Below, one piece after another: positions 1 through 44,526 of a DNA stretch of 49,681 bases; the first letter of the stretch is position 1, and every line of letters begins with the position of its first letter. The stretch spans positions 1-49,681 of the forward strand of contig JAJXWQ010000017.1 of the NCBI GenBank assembly GCA_021781555.1, in the 5' to 3' direction. Both the position numbers and the translations under genes were made by a program. A model generated the notes under the pieces. It saw only the letters and a program-made list of their open reading frames with translations. It had not been told where the DNA came from and searched no databases. The stretch comes from a bacterium (GTDB lineage Bacteria; Cyanobacteriota; Sericytochromatia; S15B-MN24; VGJW01).

Positions 1-3000
1 ACGGCTTGTTCGGGCCGGCCCGTGGCTATGGCGGCCTGGCCGAGAAGCGAGGCGATGGAGGCCTGGCCCAGCGGGTTGCCCAGGCGCGCGTAGATGTCGC
101 CGCCGATCCGGAACGCCTGCTCGGCGCGCTCGACCTCGCCCATCGAGAGCAAGAGGGCCCCGAGGTTGGTCTGGAGCGTCGCGACCATGGCGATGTCCCC
201 GATGCGCGAGTACATCTTGAGGGCCTTGTCGTAGGCCTCGGCGGCGACCGTCCACTGGCCCTGGCCGGCATACGCCAGGGCCAGGTTGTTGAGCGCGCCC
301 GCGAGACCGGGTGCGTCCTTGATCTTCTCGCGCAGAGACACGGTCCGCTGGTAGTGCTCGATGGCTTCGGCAAAGTTCCGGCGCAGGAAGGCGCCCGTGC
401 CGAGGATGTTGTAGGCGCCGGCCATCTCCTCGATCCGCTCCGTACCTTCGAGGAGTTCCAGAGCCTGGCGGCAAGATGCCGATGCAGCCTCGAACTCGCC
501 GAGGCGCTGCTCGATCTCGGCGCGGGTCGTGAGCAGCACGGCGCGCTCTCCCCGCTCCTCCTCGCCGAGCGCAGCGCGCTGCAGCGTCGCCTCGAGCTCG
601 CCGAGACGAGCCGTGCAGCGCACCAGGGCGAGCCGATCGTCGCCCTTGCGGATGAGGGTCTTCAGGATCAGACGGTGGCACTCGGTTTGAATCGCGGCCG
701 CCGGAACCAGGGCCAGGGCGGCTTCCAGGTGTTCGAGCGCCGGGTTCAGATCGCCGGTCATGATCTCGACCGATGCGAGTCCGGCCAGCAGGCTGGCCTG
801 GTCGACGTCCGCGGCGCCCTCGGCCCGGTGGTACCACTCGAGCGCCTGGCGATAGGCGGCCAGGGCTTCGGAAACGGCATAGGAGGCGCGGAGGCGATCG
901 GCCGAGGCGAAGAGGTAGTGGCAGGCCTTGTCGGCCACCTCGCCACGGACGAAGTGGAAGGCCAGGGTGCGCGCGAGCGATCCGGGATCCTCGGGGCTGC
1001 TCATCTCGAGGACCGTGCCGACGCGCTGGTGCAGCTCCCGCCGAGTCGCCATGAGGAGATTCTGGTAGGCAACCTCCTGGATGATCGCCTGGGAAAAACC
1101 CATCTCGCCCGTGGAGCGCTTGTAGAGGAAGCCGGCCCGCAAGAGCTGGTCGAGGCCCACCTGCGGGTCGGCCTCGAGGACGGCCGCCAGCAGCCCCGGC
1201 TCGAAGGAGCGCCCGAGCACCGCCGCCACCTGCAAGAGGTGGCGCGGCTCCGGGTCGAGGCGGTCGAGGCGGGCGGCGATGGCACCCTGGACGTTGGTAG
1301 GCAGCCGTAACTCGCCCGCGGTACGCTCCAGGGCCCAGGATGCGCCCTGACGTACCAGGATGCCGCTGTCCTGCAGGGAGCGCACCAGCTCCGTCAGGTA
1401 GTAGGGATTGCCCTCGGCGCGCCAGTGTACCTGGTCGAGGAGACCCTGCACCGCGGCAGCCAGACCGCCCGTCGTGGCTCCCAGGAGAGCCGACGCGAGG
1501 GCCATCGACGCCTCGGCGGAAAGGGGCCGCAGGGCAATGCGCGATCGATCGATGCCGTCGTTGAGGGCCAGCTGGAGGAAGGGGGCGTCGGGGCGCGTCT
1601 GGCAAACCACCAGGATCGGCACGGGAGACTCGCCGAGGAAGTCGGCCAGGTGTGCGATCCACTCGAGGGAGGCTTCGTCCGCCCAGTGGAGATCCTCGAG
1701 GGAGAGCACCAGCGGCCCCCGGGCCGCCAGCGCCGAGAGCACTCCGTCGAGCGCCACGAAGGCTGCCGAGCGCTTGTGCTTGGGGGGCAGGCTATCGACC
1801 TCCGCGTGTGGAGCGGCCAGGGCCAGCAGATGGGCCAGGAGGGCGACGATGCGCGCGGGATCCTCGAGCCGGTGGTCACGGACGAGTGCGTCGAGGCCAT
1901 CGCGGATCTCGGCAGCCGGTGCCTGCTGCGACAGGCCGAGGAGGTGGTGGAGGAGGTGGGCCACGACCTGGTAGGGCTGGCGATCGTAAGACAGCGAGCG
2001 ACCCCAGACGACCTGGGCATTGGACTGGGACTTCAAGCCCATCAGGAACTTGCGGGCCAGGGCCGACTTGCCGAGGCCCATCTCGCCCACGATGTTGATC
2101 CACTGCGGGCGGCCCCTCTGGACCATGCTCCAGACGCGGTCCAGGTGCTCGAACTCGAGCTCCCGGCCGATCACCAGGACATCTTCGGTCAGGGTGGCCG
2201 TGAGGGTCCGGGTGCCGGCGAGCTCGTAGACGGCCACGGGCTCCGCCTTGCCCTTGACCATGATCGGCGCGAGGGCCGTGAAATCGAAGGCATGGCGGGA
2301 GAGGTTCCAGGTCTCGGCCGTCACCAGTACCTTGCCAGGCTTGGCGTTGGCCTCCATGCGCTGGGCGAGGTTGACCGTGTCGCCCATGACGGTGTAGTCG
2401 GACCGCTGCGTCCCGCCCACCGCTCCGGCCACCACGAGCCCGGTGTTGAGGCCGATCCGGACTTTGAGTCCGATCCCCGTGCGCGCTTCGAGTTCGGCGG
2501 CATGCCGCTGTGCGGCGTGCTGCATCTCCCAGGCCGCCAGCACGGCCCGCTCGGGATCGTCCTCGTGGGCCACCGGCGCGCCGAAGAGCGCCATGATGGC
2601 GTCGCCGATGTACTTGTCGACCACGCCGCCGTAGCGGTAGATGGGCTCCACCAGGACGTTGAAGAAGTTGTTGACGATCTCCGTGACTTCCTCGGGATCG
2701 AGCTTCTCGCTCATCGCCGTGAAGCCGGAGACATCCGTGAACAGCACCGTCACGACCCGCCGATCGCCGGCTGGCTTCTGCAGCGAGGCCGTCGTGGAGC
2801 GCTTCAGAGCACCCGTGGGGGAGCGTGGTCGCTCGGCCTCGGTCGGCGTCTTTGCGGTCGCCTGCGCGGTCCCGCACTGGTCGCAGAACTTCTGACCAGG
2901 CTGCACGAGCGCCTGGCACCCGGAGCAGACCAGGGCCAGCTTGCCGCCGCACTGGCTGCAAAACTTGGCAGTGTCGACCACCTGGGCCGAACAATGGGGA

Positions 3001-29873: not shown

Positions 29874-30908
29874 CTAAGCCTCCACGGCCTCGACCGCCGA
29901 TCGGTCGGGAATGCGCGTGACGTACTCGAAGGCGCCCTTGACGTTGAAGTACCGGCTGTCGCTGGCCAGCACGAGCGAAGCGAAATACGGATACTGGCTC
30001 AGCAGCGGGAACAGGACCTGACCGAAGCCGCCGACCAGGATCATGTTGTCGATGGAGACGTCGCGCCACACCTGCTTGACGGTCAGGGCGACGTGCTGCG
30101 CCATGAGCTCGCAGAGCCCCTGCGTGAGCTCGGCTGGAATCGAGATCTCCCGGCCGTTATCGAGGTAGCGCCCGGTCGTCACGGCCTCCATGGCGGCCAG
30201 CGGATCGACCCGGACAACCCCCTCGGCGAAGAGGCTGTCGGCGATGGCCTCGGTCAGGCGGATACCCGCGGCGGCCGTGGTGTGTCCGGAATAGCGGGGA
30301 AGTTCCTTCGGGAGCTTCACGACGACCCAGTCGGTGGCCAGGTGGCCGGGGTCGAGGACGGCCGTGAGCTCGTCGGGACTCGGGTCGAGCTGGCCCTCCA
30401 GCGTGGCCGCATAGATGGCCCCGAGCGAGCGAGGCAGGACCTCGATCTGCGCTATCTCGACCTCCATGGCTTGGCCACAGAACTCGAAGCGGTGCAAGCG
30501 CGTCCAGCGCGCGGCGCCCTGCTCGGCGTATTCCGGCCGCTTGGTGAGGAACACCGGGGTCGCCAGGCCAAGCTTGAATCGAGCCGTGCCCGCGATCTGG
30601 CGCTTGCGCACGTAAAGACCGAGGGCCGCCAGCAGGAGGACGAGGTTGAGCTCCTCGGCGAAGAGATCGATGTCGTTGACGGGGAAGAGGAACGGCTGCT
30701 CGAGCGCCTGGCGCCCGACCGAGTAAAGGTGCTTGCCTACCTTGACCGAGAGGTTGGCCGCGAGGGTCTCCTCGAGGATCTTGGCCGAGCCCCTGGACAC
30801 GACCTCGACCGGCCCACCGACGAGGGTAGGGAACGTGTACAGCGCCTCGCCGTCGTAGATCCGGATCTCGCTGCGGCCGAGATCGACGCCAAGCGTGATG
30901 AGTTCCAT
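29874..30908 (-). CDS. ParM/StbA-type actin-like ATPase
   Basis: 344 aa, actin fold. Phosphate 1 is ITLGVDLGRSEIRIY (4-18), phosphate 2 VLDPGHLATDWVVV (184-197), and the adenosine loop MILVGGFGQVLFPLL (289-303). ParM-like features include the short early strand pair TFPTLVGGPVEVV. Predicted to polymerise with ATP in the cytoplasm. It is chromosomal, with no centromere-binding ParR-like gene or iteron array beside it. Instead it is coupled to the coiled-coil gene and sits upstream of the flagellar cluster. AAGGAG precedes the ATG. Confidence 0.82.
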   Translation of the reverse strand: MELITLGVDLGRSEIRIYDGEALYTFPTLVGGPVEVVSRGSAKILEETLAANLSVKVGKHLYSVGRQALEQPFLFPVNDIDLFAEELNLVLLLAALGLYVRKRQIAGTARFKLGLATPVFLTKRPEYAEQGAARWTRLHRFEFCGQAMEVEIAQIEVLPRSLGAIYAATLEGQLDPSPDELTAVLDPGHLATDWVVVKLPKELPRYSGHTTAAAGIRLTEAIADSLFAEGVVRVDPLAAMEAVTTGRYLDNGREISIPAELTQGLCELMAQHVALTVKQVWRDVSIDNMILVGGFGQVLFPLLSQYPYFASLVLASDSRYFNVKGAFEYVTRIPDRSAVEAVEA

Positions 30909-38091: not shown

Positions 38092-38874
38092 TCAGAATCC
38101 GAGCTGCAGCCCGGCGATGAGGTTGTTGGCGTTCGGGGGGGTGCCCCTTACCGGAATGACGTAGCCGACGCCGAGCCGGATCCCCTGCGTGAGCCCGAAC
38201 TGGATCCCTGGCGCCAGGCCGAGCGAGAACATCCCCGCCCCGCCGATGGGGACCGTTCCGACGATATCAAGACTCGGTGCCAGAGCCTGCGTCGCCTGCA
38301 TCACCAGGCCGGCACCGTAGTCAATGCGCCCGGCAAACGGCCGGAACATCGCGTCCAGGTTGGTCTGTGCGGGTCCGATGGTGGTCAGGGCCCTCAATCC
38401 GAACGCGGGCCTGAGCCCGGCAAGGTTCAAGCCACCGGCCGAGCCCGGCGCTTGCAGCGCTCCGACCAGCGACAGCCCCGCGGCCTTGTCCGCGCTCTGG
38501 AGGATCGAGTACTGGCCTTCAACGGCCACGTTGTTCCAGAAGCCGCCGGTCAGACCGGCCGTCCGCGTGTAGTTGCCGATCACGTTGAGCCCGAGCCGGT
38601 TGGTCAGGCCGAGGATGGCCGTGGCATTCGCGCCCGTCGCCGCCGGCGAGACCACACCGGAAAGCAGGCCGTTCGCCCGCAGGGTAAACGAGCCGGCCGG
38701 ACCTGGCATCCCGGGCATCACCAAGAGCGGCTTGGCGACCACCGGCACGGCCTTGCCCTTGGCCGACGGGATGACGGCCGGCCGGTTCGACGCCGGTGGA
38801 TTGGCTGCTAACGCCACGCCGGGCAGCGCGATGATTCCCGCTGCCGCGGCTGCCGCCGTTACCTTGAGGCTCAT
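38092..38874 (-). CDS. Secreted outer-membrane barrel-like protein (paralogue 1)
   Basis: 260 aa. Signal peptide MSLKVTAAAAAAGIIALPGV with cleavage after ALA, then a Pro/Lys linker, then alternating hydrophobic strands rich in Gly/Ala/Leu and a C-terminal aromatic (LIAGLQLGF), typical of outer-membrane barrels. Similar in layout and ending to the next gene upstream (for example GLGVGYEIPI there and GVGYVIPVRG here). AAGGAG precedes the ATG. No family recognised. Probably co-transcribed with 38948-39664. Confidence 0.75.
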   Translation of the reverse strand: MSLKVTAAAAAAGIIALPGVALAANPPASNRPAVIPSAKGKAVPVVAKPLLVMPGMPGPAGSFTLRANGLLSGVVSPAATGANATAILGLTNRLGLNVIGNYTRTAGLTGGFWNNVAVEGQYSILQSADKAAGLSLVGALQAPGSAGGLNLAGLRPAFGLRALTTIGPAQTNLDAMFRPFAGRIDYGAGLVMQATQALAPSLDIVGTVPIGGAGMFSLGLAPGIQFGLTQGIRLGVGYVIPVRGTPPNANNLIAGLQLGF

Positions 38875-38947: not shown

Positions 38948-39664
38948 CTAGAAGAGAAACTGCGCCTGTGCCACGACCTGACCGGTCGCAGAGCCCGCGA
39001 TCGGAATCTCGTAGCCGAGCCCCACCCCCAGGTTGGGAACAGGCCGGACATTGATCTCGGGCGTCAAGGAGGCGAGCTGGACGGGGCCGCCCACCAACCC
39101 GAGTTCGAGTCCCGGAGCCAGCACGGGCAGCACCTGCCAGAGGCCGGCGGCCCGGATCTCGGTCTGATTGAGTCCCGGGAACCACCCCACGTTCGCCAGG
39201 CCCAGGAAGGGACCGACCTGGGCCTGCCCTCGCAGGCCGACCAGGGGCTGCATCGAGCCGATGCTCAAGCCCGCCGCGCTCCCTGGCACGTGAAGACCCA
39301 GGATGGCCGAGATGCCATTACCCGCAGGCCGCCCCACGATACCGAGCTGAACATCCGCTCCGAATTCGGACAGGTAAGCCCCGTTCGTCCCGAGGCCGAC
39401 ATAGGGGGCCGTCACCTCCAGGCCGAGCTTGCTGGTGAGTCCCGCGTCGAGGATGAACCGCGTGGTCGTCAAACCCGGGGCCATCGCGGCCGATGCCGCC
39501 AGGTTGAGCGCCCCGGCCGGCAGGGGCATGCCGATGCCGGTCAAGATGGGGCGCGGCAATGCCGGCAGGCGCGGAAGCGGCGGCTGGGCCAAGACGGGAC
39601 CCGCAGCGCCAGCCGTGATCCACGAAGCCGCCATGAGTACGAGCGTCGGTCGCACCAGGTGCAT
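38948..39664 (-). CDS. Secreted outer-membrane barrel-like protein (paralogue 2)
   Basis: 238 aa. Signal peptide MHLVRPTLVLMAASWITAGA with cleavage near VLA, a Pro-rich stretch, then repeated Gly-rich amphipathic strands (TSKLGLEVTAPYVGLGTNGA, GLELGLVGGPVQLASLTPEI) and a final aromatic QAQFLF. Shares architecture with 38092-38874, so a tandem duplication is likely. GGAAGGGGG precedes the ATG. A purine-rich 5' leader and the repeat array lie upstream. Confidence 0.75.
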   Translation of the reverse strand: MHLVRPTLVLMAASWITAGAAGPVLAQPPLPRLPALPRPILTGIGMPLPAGALNLAASAAMAPGLTTTRFILDAGLTSKLGLEVTAPYVGLGTNGAYLSEFGADVQLGIVGRPAGNGISAILGLHVPGSAAGLSIGSMQPLVGLRGQAQVGPFLGLANVGWFPGLNQTEIRAAGLWQVLPVLAPGLELGLVGGPVQLASLTPEINVRPVPNLGVGLGYEIPIAGSATGQVVAQAQFLF

Positions 39665-40090: not shown

Positions 40091-41197
40091 CTACTGGAAG
40101 ACGATCCCGAATCCGACGTCGTAGGTGAACCCGCCGAACTTGGCGGTGCTCGAGAAATTGTTTCCGGAATCAGGCAGCATCACGACGTTGGCCGGATTGG
40201 GCTCGATGTCCACGAAACCCAGGTTCAAGAACAGCGAGTGCGTGAACCTGAACATCATCCCGCCCTTGAAGTCGACCGTATTCAGCAGATTCTGGCCGAT
40301 GATGAAGCTCGGCCCGGCGCCGGCGTAGAGGTTGAAGATCCGTTGATCCGTTCCCCTGACGAAGAGGGGATCCAGCGCCAGCATGAAGTACGGGCCGACC
40401 GATACCACGGGAAGGCTCAGATTGGGATTGAGGGCTCCGGCTTGCAGCACGTTGGCCTCCAGGCCGTAAGCGAAATCGTCGAGAAAGCTGCTCTGACGCA
40501 GCAATATCAGGCCGAGATCGAGCCCTTGCGCGACGAACTGGTTCGAAGCGCTGCTTCCCGGGAGTGCCTGGCGCGAGGTGTTGAAACCCTGGAGGCCTCC
40601 GTACACGTACAGGCCGGACATCCGATCCCGGTCCAGTTTCTGGGCGGCGATCTCCTCTTGCTCCTTCTCGCGAGCCAGGGGCTCGGTCTCGAAGTGCTTG
40701 CTCCAGATGATGGCCCCGTCGTTGGCCCGGATGAGCTTGAACGTGACGATGACGTTCTTGCCCGTGCCGAGCGTATTCCACATCAAGACCCCATCGACGC
40801 CCAGCCGATGCGCCAGCGCGGCCAGCGCCGCGTCGGAGTCGATGGTGTTCGAGAACGTGAAGCTCGTGCGGGTCGACTCGATGTGCGGAACCGAGCACTC
40901 GCGGCAGTAGACGACCTTGAAGCGGTTGGTCTTGATGAGGTCATCGATGATGCGGTTCTCGATGATGGTATTGAGCTCCGGATATGGATCCTTGCGCTTC
41001 TCGCGGTAGACGAAGATCTTGACGACACTCGGATCCGCCTGCGAGATCGACCGGCCGAACCCGGCGAAGAGCTGATCCATCAGCTCCGGATGCGTGAGCA
41101 TCGCCACGGCCGGATCGCGCGGCCTGGAATCGGCGGCCAGTGCGGGCGTGGCCAGCGAGACGGCGAGGCACGCGGCCATGAGCAAGGCGGCTTTCAT
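40091..41197 (-). CDS. Exported FlgO/CsgG-like domain fused to a beta-barrel
   Basis: 368 aa. Signal peptide MKAALLMAACLAVSLATPAL ending ALA. Residues about 45-175 resemble the FlgO/CsgG/TolB-N alpha/beta fold: PSVVKIFVYREKRK, IIENRIIDDLIKTNRFKVVY, ALAHRLGVDGVLMWNTLG and IRANDGAIIWSKHFE. From about 195 the protein has amphipathic strands with turns and a terminal aromatic (FTYDVGFGIVFQ), as an outer-membrane barrel. AGGAA lies before ATG 41197. Third gene of the FliF-FliG fusion operon, 34 nt behind the second. Outer-membrane anchor is inference. Confidence 0.78.
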   Translation of the reverse strand: MKAALLMAACLAVSLATPALAADSRPRDPAVAMLTHPELMDQLFAGFGRSISQADPSVVKIFVYREKRKDPYPELNTIIENRIIDDLIKTNRFKVVYCRECSVPHIESTRTSFTFSNTIDSDAALAALAHRLGVDGVLMWNTLGTGKNVIVTFKLIRANDGAIIWSKHFETEPLAREKEQEEIAAQKLDRDRMSGLYVYGGLQGFNTSRQALPGSSASNQFVAQGLDLGLILLRQSSFLDDFAYGLEANVLQAGALNPNLSLPVVSVGPYFMLALDPLFVRGTDQRIFNLYAGAGPSFIIGQNLLNTVDFKGGMMFRFTHSLFLNLGFVDIEPNPANVVMLPDSGNNFSSTAKFGGFTYDVGFGIVFQ

Positions 41198-41231
41198 CTG
41201 GGGATTCCTCATCGAGATCGGCAGCTGGCGG

Positions 41232-42674
41232 TCACTGCGGGAACGCGGGGGCGGAGGATAGGTGCGCGAGCGCCGTCCGGACATCGGACATCGTGGGATC
41301 GTACAGAAGCGCCTGGGCCCACGATTCACGGGCCAGGCCGACAGCCCCTTTGCCGTAGTAGAGCGATCCCTGGAGTGCCAGGAGGGTCGGGTTGGTCGGC
41401 TCCATCGCCAGGGCCTCGTCGATCGAGAGCATCGCCAGGTCCAGCTTGTGGGCGTACGCGAGCTGCTGTGCCGTCGAATAGAGTTCGAGGACCGCGATCG
41501 ACTCCGAGGCCACCGACACGGGGGGTGGCGTCTGCCAGACCATGCGCTGCGTGTAGGTGGCATTCACGGAACGATTGGACTCGCGGTGGACAACCTCCCG
41601 CCGCTGGATCGCCTCGGAATCGGCCGAGACGGTCCGGAGCGGCTGCGGCGCTCCGGCGCTCGCTGCCGGGGTCGCCAGCGCCGGAGCGGGGGACGGCGCT
41701 GCGCCCTGGCCCCGGGGAATGCTGGCCGTCAAGACGAAGTCCTCGTCCTGCGGCAAGAACGCGGTATCGAGGGAGATTCCCGGGCCCTCGCGTTGCAGCC
41801 GTATGATCGGCTCGGTGGGGCCCTGGGGCGCGGCGGCCAAATTCGTGGGGGCGGGCGTTGTGACCGCGGCCGGCATCGCAGCCAGCGCAGGGGCCGCCGG
41901 CGAGGGGGTGCCCGGCACCGGGGCGGGCGACCCTGCGAGCGGGTTGGGGAAATACCTCGCGAGCTGAGAGGTCGAGCTGACGGGCAGCGCCAGTGTGGCG
42001 GGCGGCACCAGGACAAAGGCAGGAGCCGGTGTCGCGCCCGGAACCTCCGCCAGTGGGTCGAACGCGGCCGGAAACACCGGCTCGGGCGGTGGCGGTGGTG
42101 GTGGCACGGCGACCGACGCCATGGCGTCTCCGGTGAGGGGCAAGGCCGCCGACCTGCCCGATGCCAGCTCCGCGCCTGGCGCCGAGGCATCGCTGCTGGA
42201 CCTCGCCACCGCGACCGCCGGGGCTGCCGGGGGCAAGCTGGTTGCGGCTCGAGTCCCCTCCGGAGCCGCTCCGGATCCGGCCTCGAGGCCCCGCGGTGGC
42301 GCAGGAGTCGCTACCGGGTGACCGGGCTTGAGCGGCCGGTGGACGACGACTACCGGGTGACCGGGCTTGAGCGGCCGGTGGACGACGGCTACCGGGTGAC
42401 CGGGCTTGAGCGGCCGGTGGACGACGGCTACCGGGTGACCGGGCTTGAGCGGCCGGTGGACGACGGCTACCGGGTGACCGGGCTTGAGCGGCCGGTGGAC
42501 GACGGCTACGCGCTGGCCCGCCCGGGCACTTGCCGTTGCCAGGCGAGCCAGCGCCGGCGGAGCGGGTGCCCGCGCTGCCAGAGCTGGGGCGATCCCGGCC
42601 GTGCTGGCGAGAAGCCAGGCCAGCGCGCCGCTGCGAAGCCCGGCAAATCTGGAAGACAGCAGTTCGAGGCGCAT
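41232..42674 (-). CDS. Exported Pro/Ala-rich protein with 13-residue repeats and TPR-like end
   Basis: 480 aa. Signal peptide (1-33, ending APALA). Five tandem copies of VAVVHRPLKPGHP follow (56-120; the fifth starts VVVV), then about 200 low-complexity residues rich in Pro/Ala, and a C-terminal helical region (about 395-475) with TPR-like spacing: SIAVLELYSTAQQLAYAHKL, SIDEALAMEPTNPTLLALQG, ARESWAQALLYDPTMSDVRT. Likely a long flexible periplasmic linker carrying a protein-binding end. ATG is 4 nt after the stop of the fusion gene. Confidence 0.8.
   Translation of the reverse strand: MRLELLSSRFAGLRSGALAWLLASTAGIAPALAARAPAPPALARLATASARAGQRVAVVHRPLKPGHPVAVVHRPLKPGHPVAVVHRPLKPGHPVAVVHRPLKPGHPVVVVHRPLKPGHPVATPAPPRGLEAGSGAAPEGTRAATSLPPAAPAVAVARSSSDASAPGAELASGRSAALPLTGDAMASVAVPPPPPPPEPVFPAAFDPLAEVPGATPAPAFVLVPPATLALPVSSTSQLARYFPNPLAGSPAPVPGTPSPAAPALAAMPAAVTTPAPTNLAAAPQGPTEPIIRLQREGPGISLDTAFLPQDEDFVLTASIPRGQGAAPSPAPALATPAASAGAPQPLRTVSADSEAIQRREVVHRESNRSVNATYTQRMVWQTPPPVSVASESIAVLELYSTAQQLAYAHKLDLAMLSIDEALAMEPTNPTLLALQGSLYYGKGAVGLARESWAQALLYDPTMSDVRTALAHLSSAPAFPQ
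42312..42506. repeat. Five tandem 39-bp coding repeats
   Basis: Five in-frame 39-bp units, almost identical (the unit nearest 42312 differs by one base, gac for ggc). They encode the 13-residue repeats of the gene 41232-42674. Such arrays change copy number by slippage. Confidence 0.95.
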
Positions 42675-42678
42675 CGCG

Positions 42679-44526
42679 CTAGCCCTCGGCCAGGGATTTG
42701 AGAGAAAAGCGACCCTGGGCGATCAGGGTGCGGATCCTGGTGACGAGCTCGCGCCGGGCGTCCCCGACGGCCTGAGGTTCCGGCGGCCGGCTTTCGAGCT
42801 CCTCGATGCCGTCCATCACCAGGGCGCGCCGCCTTTCGGTCAGGACGTCCAGGATCCGCTCGTCCATCCCCTGGTCGGTTCCGCGCAACGCCGTTGCCAG
42901 GCGCACGGGATCCATCTCCCGCACCGCATCTTTGATGAGCGCCGGTGGAAGGCGGGGAATGTCCTCGAAGGTGAAGTAGACCTCCTTGACCCGCCGCATC
43001 ATCGAAGGGTTGGATGTCCTGAGGGTGTCCAGGATCCGCCGCTCCGTGGCGTCGTCGGCATTGTCGAGGATATCGACCAGAAGCTGGACGCCGTCCGTCA
43101 CGATGGCCGAGAAAGAGGGAGCTTGCTCGGCCTTCGCTGCCAGCTTGTCGGCGATGCTCTGGAATGCGGTGATGGGCACGGCCTCGAGCTCGCCGATCGC
43201 GCTCGCGATGGCTCCCTGCTCCTCGGGCGGCCAGCGGCGCAGGAGTGCGGCGGCTCGCTTGATCGGGAGCTGTGAGAGCGCCAGGGCCTTGATCTTGATG
43301 CCTTCCTCCTCGAGGATGAAGACGATCTGCGAATCGTCGAGCTTGTCGAGGAAGGCGAACGGCGAGTTCTTGCGTCCGGACCCGGTGGCCAGCGAAGCCG
43401 CCCGTTCTGCAACGAGCACCTGGTAAGCCTCCTCGATGGCCCGGTGAGTCTCGGCGGGCGAGGCCTCGCGGGCAGCCGGAAACTCGGCCTCGACCTTGCC
43501 CCACTGGGAGGCCGCGAGACCCGAGAACATCCGGCTCGAACCCTGGAGTCCCAGGGCCCGGAGCACGATCGCCGCCTTACGCGAGCCATCCTCCTTCTTG
43601 AGGAGATCCTGGACGAAGGCCACGCCGAGGTCCGGATACTCCAGGAGCATCACGACGAGCTCCTGGCGCAGGATCGCCGCCTCGCGGTCGGCCTTCTGGA
43701 GGGGATCGTCGACGGGCGCCAAAGGGGCTGCCTGCAACTCGGCCAACAAGGCCGGACCGGGCCCCTGCGGCAGGGCGGGCGCGGGCACGATGCCGGGCTT
43801 GCGGCGCAGGAGCGCGAAAAGCGCCGCCAGCAGTCCGACACCCAGCAACGCGACCAGGGCCTCGAGCCACCAGCGCGTGGCGTTCCCGGCCGGCAGCGAC
43901 GGGACCGGTGGCGATCCCGAGGCCACCAGCGCCTCCGCAGGGCCGCCCGGAAAATTCCGCTGCTCGAACCTGAGGTCGTCGCCGCGGGCATAGTCGAGGT
44001 TGGCCTTCTGATCGATAAGGGTCTTCAGGAAGTCCCGGTCGTCCTGGGTCAAAGACCTGTCCACGACCACGAGAATCCGCTGGCGATCCACGCTCAGGCC
44101 AGCGGGTATCGCCGGCTCCGTCAGGGGCGCACCCGGCGGGACGAGCGGCTCGGGGACCTGGTTTGCCGCCGTGACCGGCGCGCTGTTCAGACCCGGCAAT
44201 CCCGGTAGCGGAAAAGTATCATTGCCGACCTGAGGCGCGACGGGCACGGGGGATCCAGCGGTCGCCCCGGCTCGGCTCATCGCCACCTGTACCTGGATGA
44301 TGAAGCGATCGCCCCCGAGATAGGAGTCAACGGCCTGCGTGAGACTCTGCTCCATGAGACGCTCGTAGGAGAGCTCATCGAGGGCCAGACCGGCATCGTC
44401 GGCGGGCGCAACCACGGGGGCAGCCACTGCCAGCGCGGGCGCGGCCAGCATGCCGCCGCACACGACCGCTGCGATCGACCCGGCCAATCCCAGTGGTATC
44501 AGGCGGGAGATACGAGACTTGGGCAC
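42679..44526 (-). CDS. FliF C-terminal region fused to FliG (natural MS-ring/switch fusion)
   Basis: 615 aa. Residues 1-35 form a signal peptide (SRISRLIPLGLAGSIAAVVC ... PALA). Residues 50-200 match the C-terminal periplasmic part of FliF (YERLMEQSLTQAVDSYLGGD, ILVVVDRSLTQDDRDFLKTL). The membrane helix at 219-241 is followed by RRK. A FliF-tail-like helix at 283-311 is followed by FliG-N (314-380, RKAAIVLRALG), FliG-M (388-465, SPFAFLDKLDDSQIVFILEE) and FliG-C (475-610, DGVQLLVDILDNADDATERR, VYFTFEDI, TERRRALVMDGIEEL). FliF's RBM1/RBM2 ring modules are absent. GTG 44526 chosen because the signal peptide starts there. First gene of a three-gene operon; divergent from the cysteine desulfurase. 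Confidence 0.85.
   Translation of the reverse strand: MPKSRISRLIPLGLAGSIAAVVCGGMLAAPALAVAAPVVAPADDAGLALDELSYERLMEQSLTQAVDSYLGGDRFIIQVQVAMSRAGATAGSPVPVAPQVGNDTFPLPGLPGLNSAPVTAANQVPEPLVPPGAPLTEPAIPAGLSVDRQRILVVVDRSLTQDDRDFLKTLIDQKANLDYARGDDLRFEQRNFPGGPAEALVASGSPPVPSLPAGNATRWWLEALVALLGVGLLAALFALLRRKPGIVPAPALPQGPGPALLAELQAAPLAPVDDPLQKADREAAILRQELVVMLLEYPDLGVAFVQDLLKKEDGSRKAAIVLRALGLQGSSRMFSGLAASQWGKVEAEFPAAREASPAETHRAIEEAYQVLVAERAASLATGSGRKNSPFAFLDKLDDSQIVFILEEEGIKIKALALSQLPIKRAAALLRRWPPEEQGAIASAIGELEAVPITAFQSIADKLAAKAEQAPSFSAIVTDGVQLLVDILDNADDATERRILDTLRTSNPSMMRRVKEVYFTFEDIPRLPPALIKDAVREMDPVRLATALRGTDQGMDERILDVLTERRRALVMDGIEELESRPPEPQAVGDARRELVTRIRTLIAQGRFSLKSLAEG

Follow-up and report, generated by a model that had tools for sequence, protein, structure and literature searches.

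A natural FliF-FliG fusion in Sericytochromatia, the probable rotor of a flagellum-independent MotAB-driven motor

This study analyzed a stretch of 49,681 nucleotides (the window) in which one gene encodes the C-terminal region of FliF joined to a complete FliG. The protein probably serves as the rotor in a MotAB-driven motor that works independently of flagella and is linked to the outer membrane, a third system beside two flagellar ones. The host, nonphotosynthetic and related to the cyanobacteria, is a Tanganyikabacteria/Sericytochromatia MAG (Cyanobacteriota) carrying two flagellar gene sets, system A (contigs C134/C66) and system B (C16/C128). In the following, G000 denotes the genome of the window, G001 to G009 and further G numbers denote other genomes of the class, and C and L numbers denote contigs and loci, respectively.

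Domain architecture and conservation of the fusion

Across the fusion gene (Table 1) the plus strand is interrupted by stop codons, and the 615-codon frame reads from 44526 to 42679. The preliminary description, made from the sequence alone, had given the correct coordinates without a strand, which is minus. The GTG start is supported by the orthologue in G001, the nearest genome, which begins with MPKSRISR at the codon equivalent to that of VPKSRISR in the window fusion.

Table 1. Features of the fusion operon in the window and domain map of the fusion protein (residue numbers are those of the fusion)
Feature	Position	Strand	Description
FliF(RBM3-TM-tail)-FliG(N,M,C) fusion	42679..44526	minus	615 aa, GTG start
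Fusion, FliF half: signal-type N-terminus	residues ~1-36
Fusion, FliF half: RBM3	residues ~43-192		with long insert
Fusion, FliF half: TM	residues ~216-240
Fusion, FliF half: FliF-tail-like helix	residues ~275-312
Fusion, second half: FliG_N	residues ~313-380
Fusion, second half: FliG_M	residues 399-469
Fusion, second half: FliG_C	residues 501-609
Exported TPR-like protein	41232..42674	minus	480 aa; Pro-rich, tandem RPLKPGHPVAVVH repeat, C-terminal TPR-like region
Exported barrel protein	40091..41212	minus	373 aa; TolB_N/LpoB/FlgO-like periplasmic domain, then OmpA-like beta-barrel (predicted outer-membrane protein)
Small exported protein, candidate operon member	38948..39664	minus	no family assigned
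Small exported protein, candidate operon member	38092..38874	minus	no family assigned; orthologue only in G001

The second half of the protein was recognized as FliG by several comparisons. The Pfam families FliG_N (residues 314-376, E 4.8e-9), FliG_M (1.5e-9), and FliG_C (1e-20) all scored above their gathering scores, a profile built from the FliG of the class itself aligned to residues 313-608 (E 6e-22), and sequence comparison also matched the fusion to solved FliG structures of several species. The fusion reached 80.8 bits against the NCBIfam equivalog model for FliG (TIGR00207) and so missed its cut-off of 226.7.

The first half comprises the RBM3 domain, the second transmembrane helix, and the C-terminal tail of FliF. 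On its own this part had no Pfam match, including PF08345; profile-profile comparison by hhalign aligned the fusion with the system-B FliF (E 9.9e-10, covering the latter half of RBM3 together with the membrane helix) and with the system-A FliF (E 4.7e-6). An HMM of the six known fusions, run on 386 genomes of the phylum, matched ordinary fliF genes adjoining fliG in dozens of genomes. In these alignments FliF was matched from approximately residue 250, in several cases to its last residues (530/532, 538/540), and FliG from approximately residue 10; because the alignment ends fall there, the junction corresponds to the 3' end of fliF and the 5' end of fliG, which are neighboring genes in flagellar system A. 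The tail matched weakly in pairwise comparison (mean z 1.1), so its assignment rests on the profile alignments. An AlphaFold model, poor overall (mean pLDDT 62.7, pTM 0.30, six sequences), placed the RBM elements in the order helix-strand-(insert)-strand-helix-strand with modest confidence, and a Foldseek search listed FliG structures at the top, followed by MS-ring RBM3 structures. Pfam, hhalign, HMM, and Foldseek results agree on what the preliminary description had proposed: the FliF half leads to MS-ring RBM3 and the second half to FliG within one frame, behind a signal-type N-terminus, and RBM1 and RBM2 are missing, with no PF01514 match in the fusion.

The full fusion was found only in G000-G003, G006, and G009, that is, in 6 of the 386 phylum genomes searched and 6 of the 18 of the class, nearly all genomes compared being MAGs. 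Between G000 and G001 the dN/dS ratio was approximately 0.15 for the whole gene; the FliF part taken alone gave 0.22 and the FliG part 0.09. These findings indicate that the fusion is under purifying selection.

Operon partners, dedicated stator, and rotor surface

The TPR-like protein starts with an ATG 4 bases beyond the fusion gene, which places both genes in the same operon. An orthologue of this protein adjoins the fusion in G001, G003, G006, and G009, and the order of fusion, TPR protein, and barrel protein was observed in five of the six fusion genomes, the contig of G002 ending too early; a survey of homologues suggested in the preliminary description thus yielded both further fusions and shared synteny. 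At least five tandem RPLKPGHPVAVVH-type units occupy the N-terminal half of the TPR protein (window ~42280-42440, minus strand), and the unit is degenerate in G001. The predicted fold of the barrel protein matches TolB/LpoB-type periplasmic domains and OmpA-like barrels, and the Pfam family FlgO was above its cut-off in the G006 orthologue, whereas the copy in the window scored no better than E 0.23. For the candidate member at 38948..39664, no orthologue was called in the operons of G001, G003, G006, or G009. At the loci read, the fusion operon contained no export gate, rod or hook genes, and no FliM/FliN.

The operon reads fusion-TPR-barrel-MotA-MotB in G006 and G009, and motB lies directly upstream of the fusion in G002. 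In G000 a motB-motA pair with orthologues in G001-G004 is located on contig C103; the stator is on a separate contig in G000, G001, and G003, where its pairing with the fusion relies on tree position and co-occurrence. The MotB proteins of G006, G009, G000 (C103), and G001-G004 formed one clade apart from the flagellar stators in two trees (support 100/99 and 99/95). This MotB type was present in all six fusion genomes and also in G004, a genome 64% complete that yielded no fusion. A blast check of the MotB proteins in the other 11 class genomes revealed none closer to the fusion type than to the flagellar type, the G010:C118 protein being ambiguous and nearly undecided. The fusion-type stator retains the channel Asp of MotB and the TM3 Pro of MotA, MotA Arg90 is not exactly conserved, and MotB carries a peptidoglycan-binding OmpA domain. 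A GNAT/FeeM-type acyltransferase follows the motB-motA pair in G000 (L055:7299-10011, C103) and also in G001, G002, and G003; it has a cyclic-nucleotide-binding domain in G000 and is possibly a regulator or a link to surface lipids.

We read the EHPQ motif and the Arg281 and Asp288 positions after E. coli FliG, drawing in addition on PMC12505986. The FliM-binding EHPQ, conserved in the ordinary FliG of the same class, was absent from all six fusions, which carry EGIK, EGLK, EGSK, EGPR, or ESPR instead. In the torque helix, five of the six fusions have Arg at the Arg281-like position, where G003 has Lys; at the Asp288-like position five have Asp and G009 has Glu. The preliminary description was correct in noting that an Arg and an acidic residue are kept.

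These components might instead form a Tol-Pal- or Ton-like energy-transducing or mechanosensing envelope complex, in which the stator would move a FliF/FliG ring so as to put strain on the outer membrane or supply it with energy, without continuous rotation for motility. The combination of a TolB_N/LpoB-like domain with an OmpA-like barrel in one operon protein, the membership of MotAB in the TolQR/ExbBD superfamily, and the finding that no appendage genes are linked to the fusion operon are consistent with such a complex. However, a simple Tol-like piston needs neither a whole FliG with its torque-helix charges nor a ring-forming RBM3, and Tol and Ton systems have no rotor ring, which makes this explanation unlikely.

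Flagellar systems of the host genome and unfused relatives

The preliminary description had suggested a search for an ordinary fliF and fliG in the genome, and both are present: FliG on C134, and FliF at two loci, one on C16 and one on C66 running on into C134. PF01514 (RBM1/RBM2) matched in G000 only on C16 and C66. The fusion as the sole FliF/FliG of the cell is thereby ruled out. G000 has two FliM/N sets, and its FliMN_C proteins all lie within flagellar sets A and B. The flagellar cluster reported at 18-28 kb of the window is real, comprising FlgF/G by Pfam and FlgK, FlgL, FliW, CsrA, and FlhF/G by inspection, and the fusion is separate from it.

System B encodes FliF, FlhA, FliPQR, FliM/N-type proteins, and hook and rod genes, and has no fliG of its own. 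Its FliF (L030:8711-10633, G000:C16) consists of RBM1-3 followed by a C-terminal FliG_M (E ~1e-11) and lacks FliG_C; it is a second natural FliF-FliG fusion of the same genome, of the chlamydial type.

The missing fliG raises the question of whether the window fusion is a specialized or alternative rotor of one of the two flagella, such as system B, and engineered FliF-FliG fusions are known to assemble and rotate (PMC10128058). However, the system-B FliF has its own FliG_M and occurs in 16 of the 18 class genomes, among them genomes that lack the fusion, so a role of the fusion as the FliG of system B is unlikely. The fusion moreover lacks RBM1/2 and the FliM motif, shows no linkage to flagellar operons, and comes with a stator clade of its own. 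We consider a flagellar role improbable. That the gene is a functionless decaying duplicate or assembly artefact is highly improbable: the window comes from a draft MAG and the FliG motifs are divergent, but the operon is conserved, and six separate genomes together with a dN/dS of approximately 0.15 rule out an assembly joint or a pseudogene.

Several further genes related to flagellar components were observed in the class. An actin-like protein (ALP_N and MreB-like_C; window 29874-30908, minus strand) lies beside FlgF/FlgG and a transglycosylase. A 139-aa protein with FliF_C/RBM3 only (L056:14358-14777, G000:C152) is located approximately 6 kb from a motA-motB pair of the C152 type. Relatives without the fusion carry a second, divergent lone FliG (G010:C89, G011:C72, and G013:C8), with housekeeping neighbors in G010. 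The genomes G007 and G008 (also G009, G002, G006, G011, and G013) gave 10-12 FHIPEP matches each; many of these comprise only the cytoplasmic domain of FlhA in frames of 300-900 aa, and a family of stand-alone FlhA-C proteins is possible.

Unfused relatives occur in another phylum, the Neomarinimicrobiota. At locus L092, motA, motB, and a FliF-like gene whose only domain is FliF_C precede a FliG, and FliG relatives of this type were present in 169 of the 245 Neomarinimicrobiota genomes searched. All 20 loci read contained the FliF-like RBM3-type gene, and 18 contained MotB with MotA beside it, the order being TPR/barrel-type proteins, MotA, MotB, FliF-like, and FliG. The FliF-like proteins are related to FliF RBM3 by hhalign (E 1e-9 to 1e-11), no RBM1/2 domain was present in the 10 that were tested, and FlhA was not found in the one genome tested for it. 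In both the FliG and the MotB trees, a supported branch divided the fusion-type and Neomarinimicrobiota proteins from the flagellar proteins, in trees whose long branches, flagged by the program, call for caution. The grouping of the fusion FliG with one Neomarinimicrobiota FliG could have arisen by long-branch attraction; we retain it because the MotB tree is independently congruent. As to the outer-membrane partners, the window barrel protein gave no match to the Neomarinimicrobiota proteins in profile comparison, and the link between the TPR proteins of the two phyla may be generic TPR similarity.

Proposed motor and comparison with known systems

In the flagellum-independent motor that we favor, the RBM3 parts would build a ring at the periplasmic side of the inner membrane, each chain would span this membrane with a single helix, and the FliG ring, covalently joined, would hang in the cytoplasm. 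The stator, a dedicated MotA5MotB2-type unit fastened to peptidoglycan through the OmpA domain of MotB, would turn the FliG_C ring by ion-motive force. Neither a FliM/FliN switch nor an export gate would take part, and the exported TPR protein and the TolB/FlgO-like barrel protein would transmit the movement to the outer membrane. As a guess, the motor may drive gliding or the movement of a surface adhesin.

In a broader reading, which on balance appears plausible, the fusion belongs to a class of flagellum-independent rotary motors composed of an RBM3-only FliF, FliG, dedicated MotAB, and TPR/barrel partners at the outer membrane, with neither export gate nor switch. Such motors would be common in Neomarinimicrobiota and have their rings fused in Sericytochromatia; they may drive gliding and would be either a relic of a pre-flagellar motor module or what remains of a flagellum after loss of the export machine. 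If this is true, flagellar rotor and stator parts have a wide use beyond the flagellum, both in a marine phylum that is abundant and uncultured and in a lineage that is sister to the cyanobacteria. A minimal rotor of one protein plus MotAB would then be available for structural study of torque generation, a comparison point would exist for the question of whether the flagellum arose by joining an older motor module to an export module, and movement in lineages presumed nonmotile would become a testable hypothesis.

A natural FliF-FliG fusion as such has already been published, and the present architecture differs from it. In Chlamydiaceae, FliF and FliG_M are fused in one gene, which has been discussed together with the injectisome (PMC4768692); that protein has an RBM2-like part and FliG_M only, without the FliF-specific RBM3-type domain, whereas the window fusion has kept RBM3, lost RBM1/2, and contains a complete FliG with its torque domain. 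It is the system-B FliF of the host genome, rather than the window fusion, that the chlamydial type resembles. The engineered FliF-FliG fusions that assemble and rotate (cited in PMC10128058 and PMC9389320) are laboratory constructs on full flagella, unlike the natural gene described here with its own stator. In the open-licence literature only these chlamydial and engineered fusions were found, and no earlier description of the present system.

Ion-driven motors outside the flagellum are known from GldLM of T9SS gliding, AglRQS of Myxococcus gliding, and TolQR (PMC13104615, PMC9389320). Similar to the proposed motor, these systems have a 5:2-type ion-driven stator on the cell envelope without a flagellum; unlike it, none has been described with a FliF/FliG rotor ring, and neither FliF nor FliG is named in the text of a review on microbial gliding motors. 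The sporulation ring protein SpoIIIAG is related to FliF RBM3 (PMC4768692) and, like the window fusion, has an RBM3-type domain without RBM1/2; unlike the fusion, it has no FliG part and no stator.

The flagellar rotor, in which the FliF MS-ring and the FliG of the C-ring work with MotAB, shares with the fusion the order RBM3, TM2, FliF tail, and then FliG N, M, and C, as well as a MotA/MotB-type stator and the Arg and acidic residue of the torque helix. In contrast to that rotor, the fusion is a single chain without RBM1/RBM2, begins with a signal-type N-terminus, and has lost EHPQ, and its operon, without export gate, rod, hook, and FliM/N, supplies TPR and barrel partners at the outer membrane.
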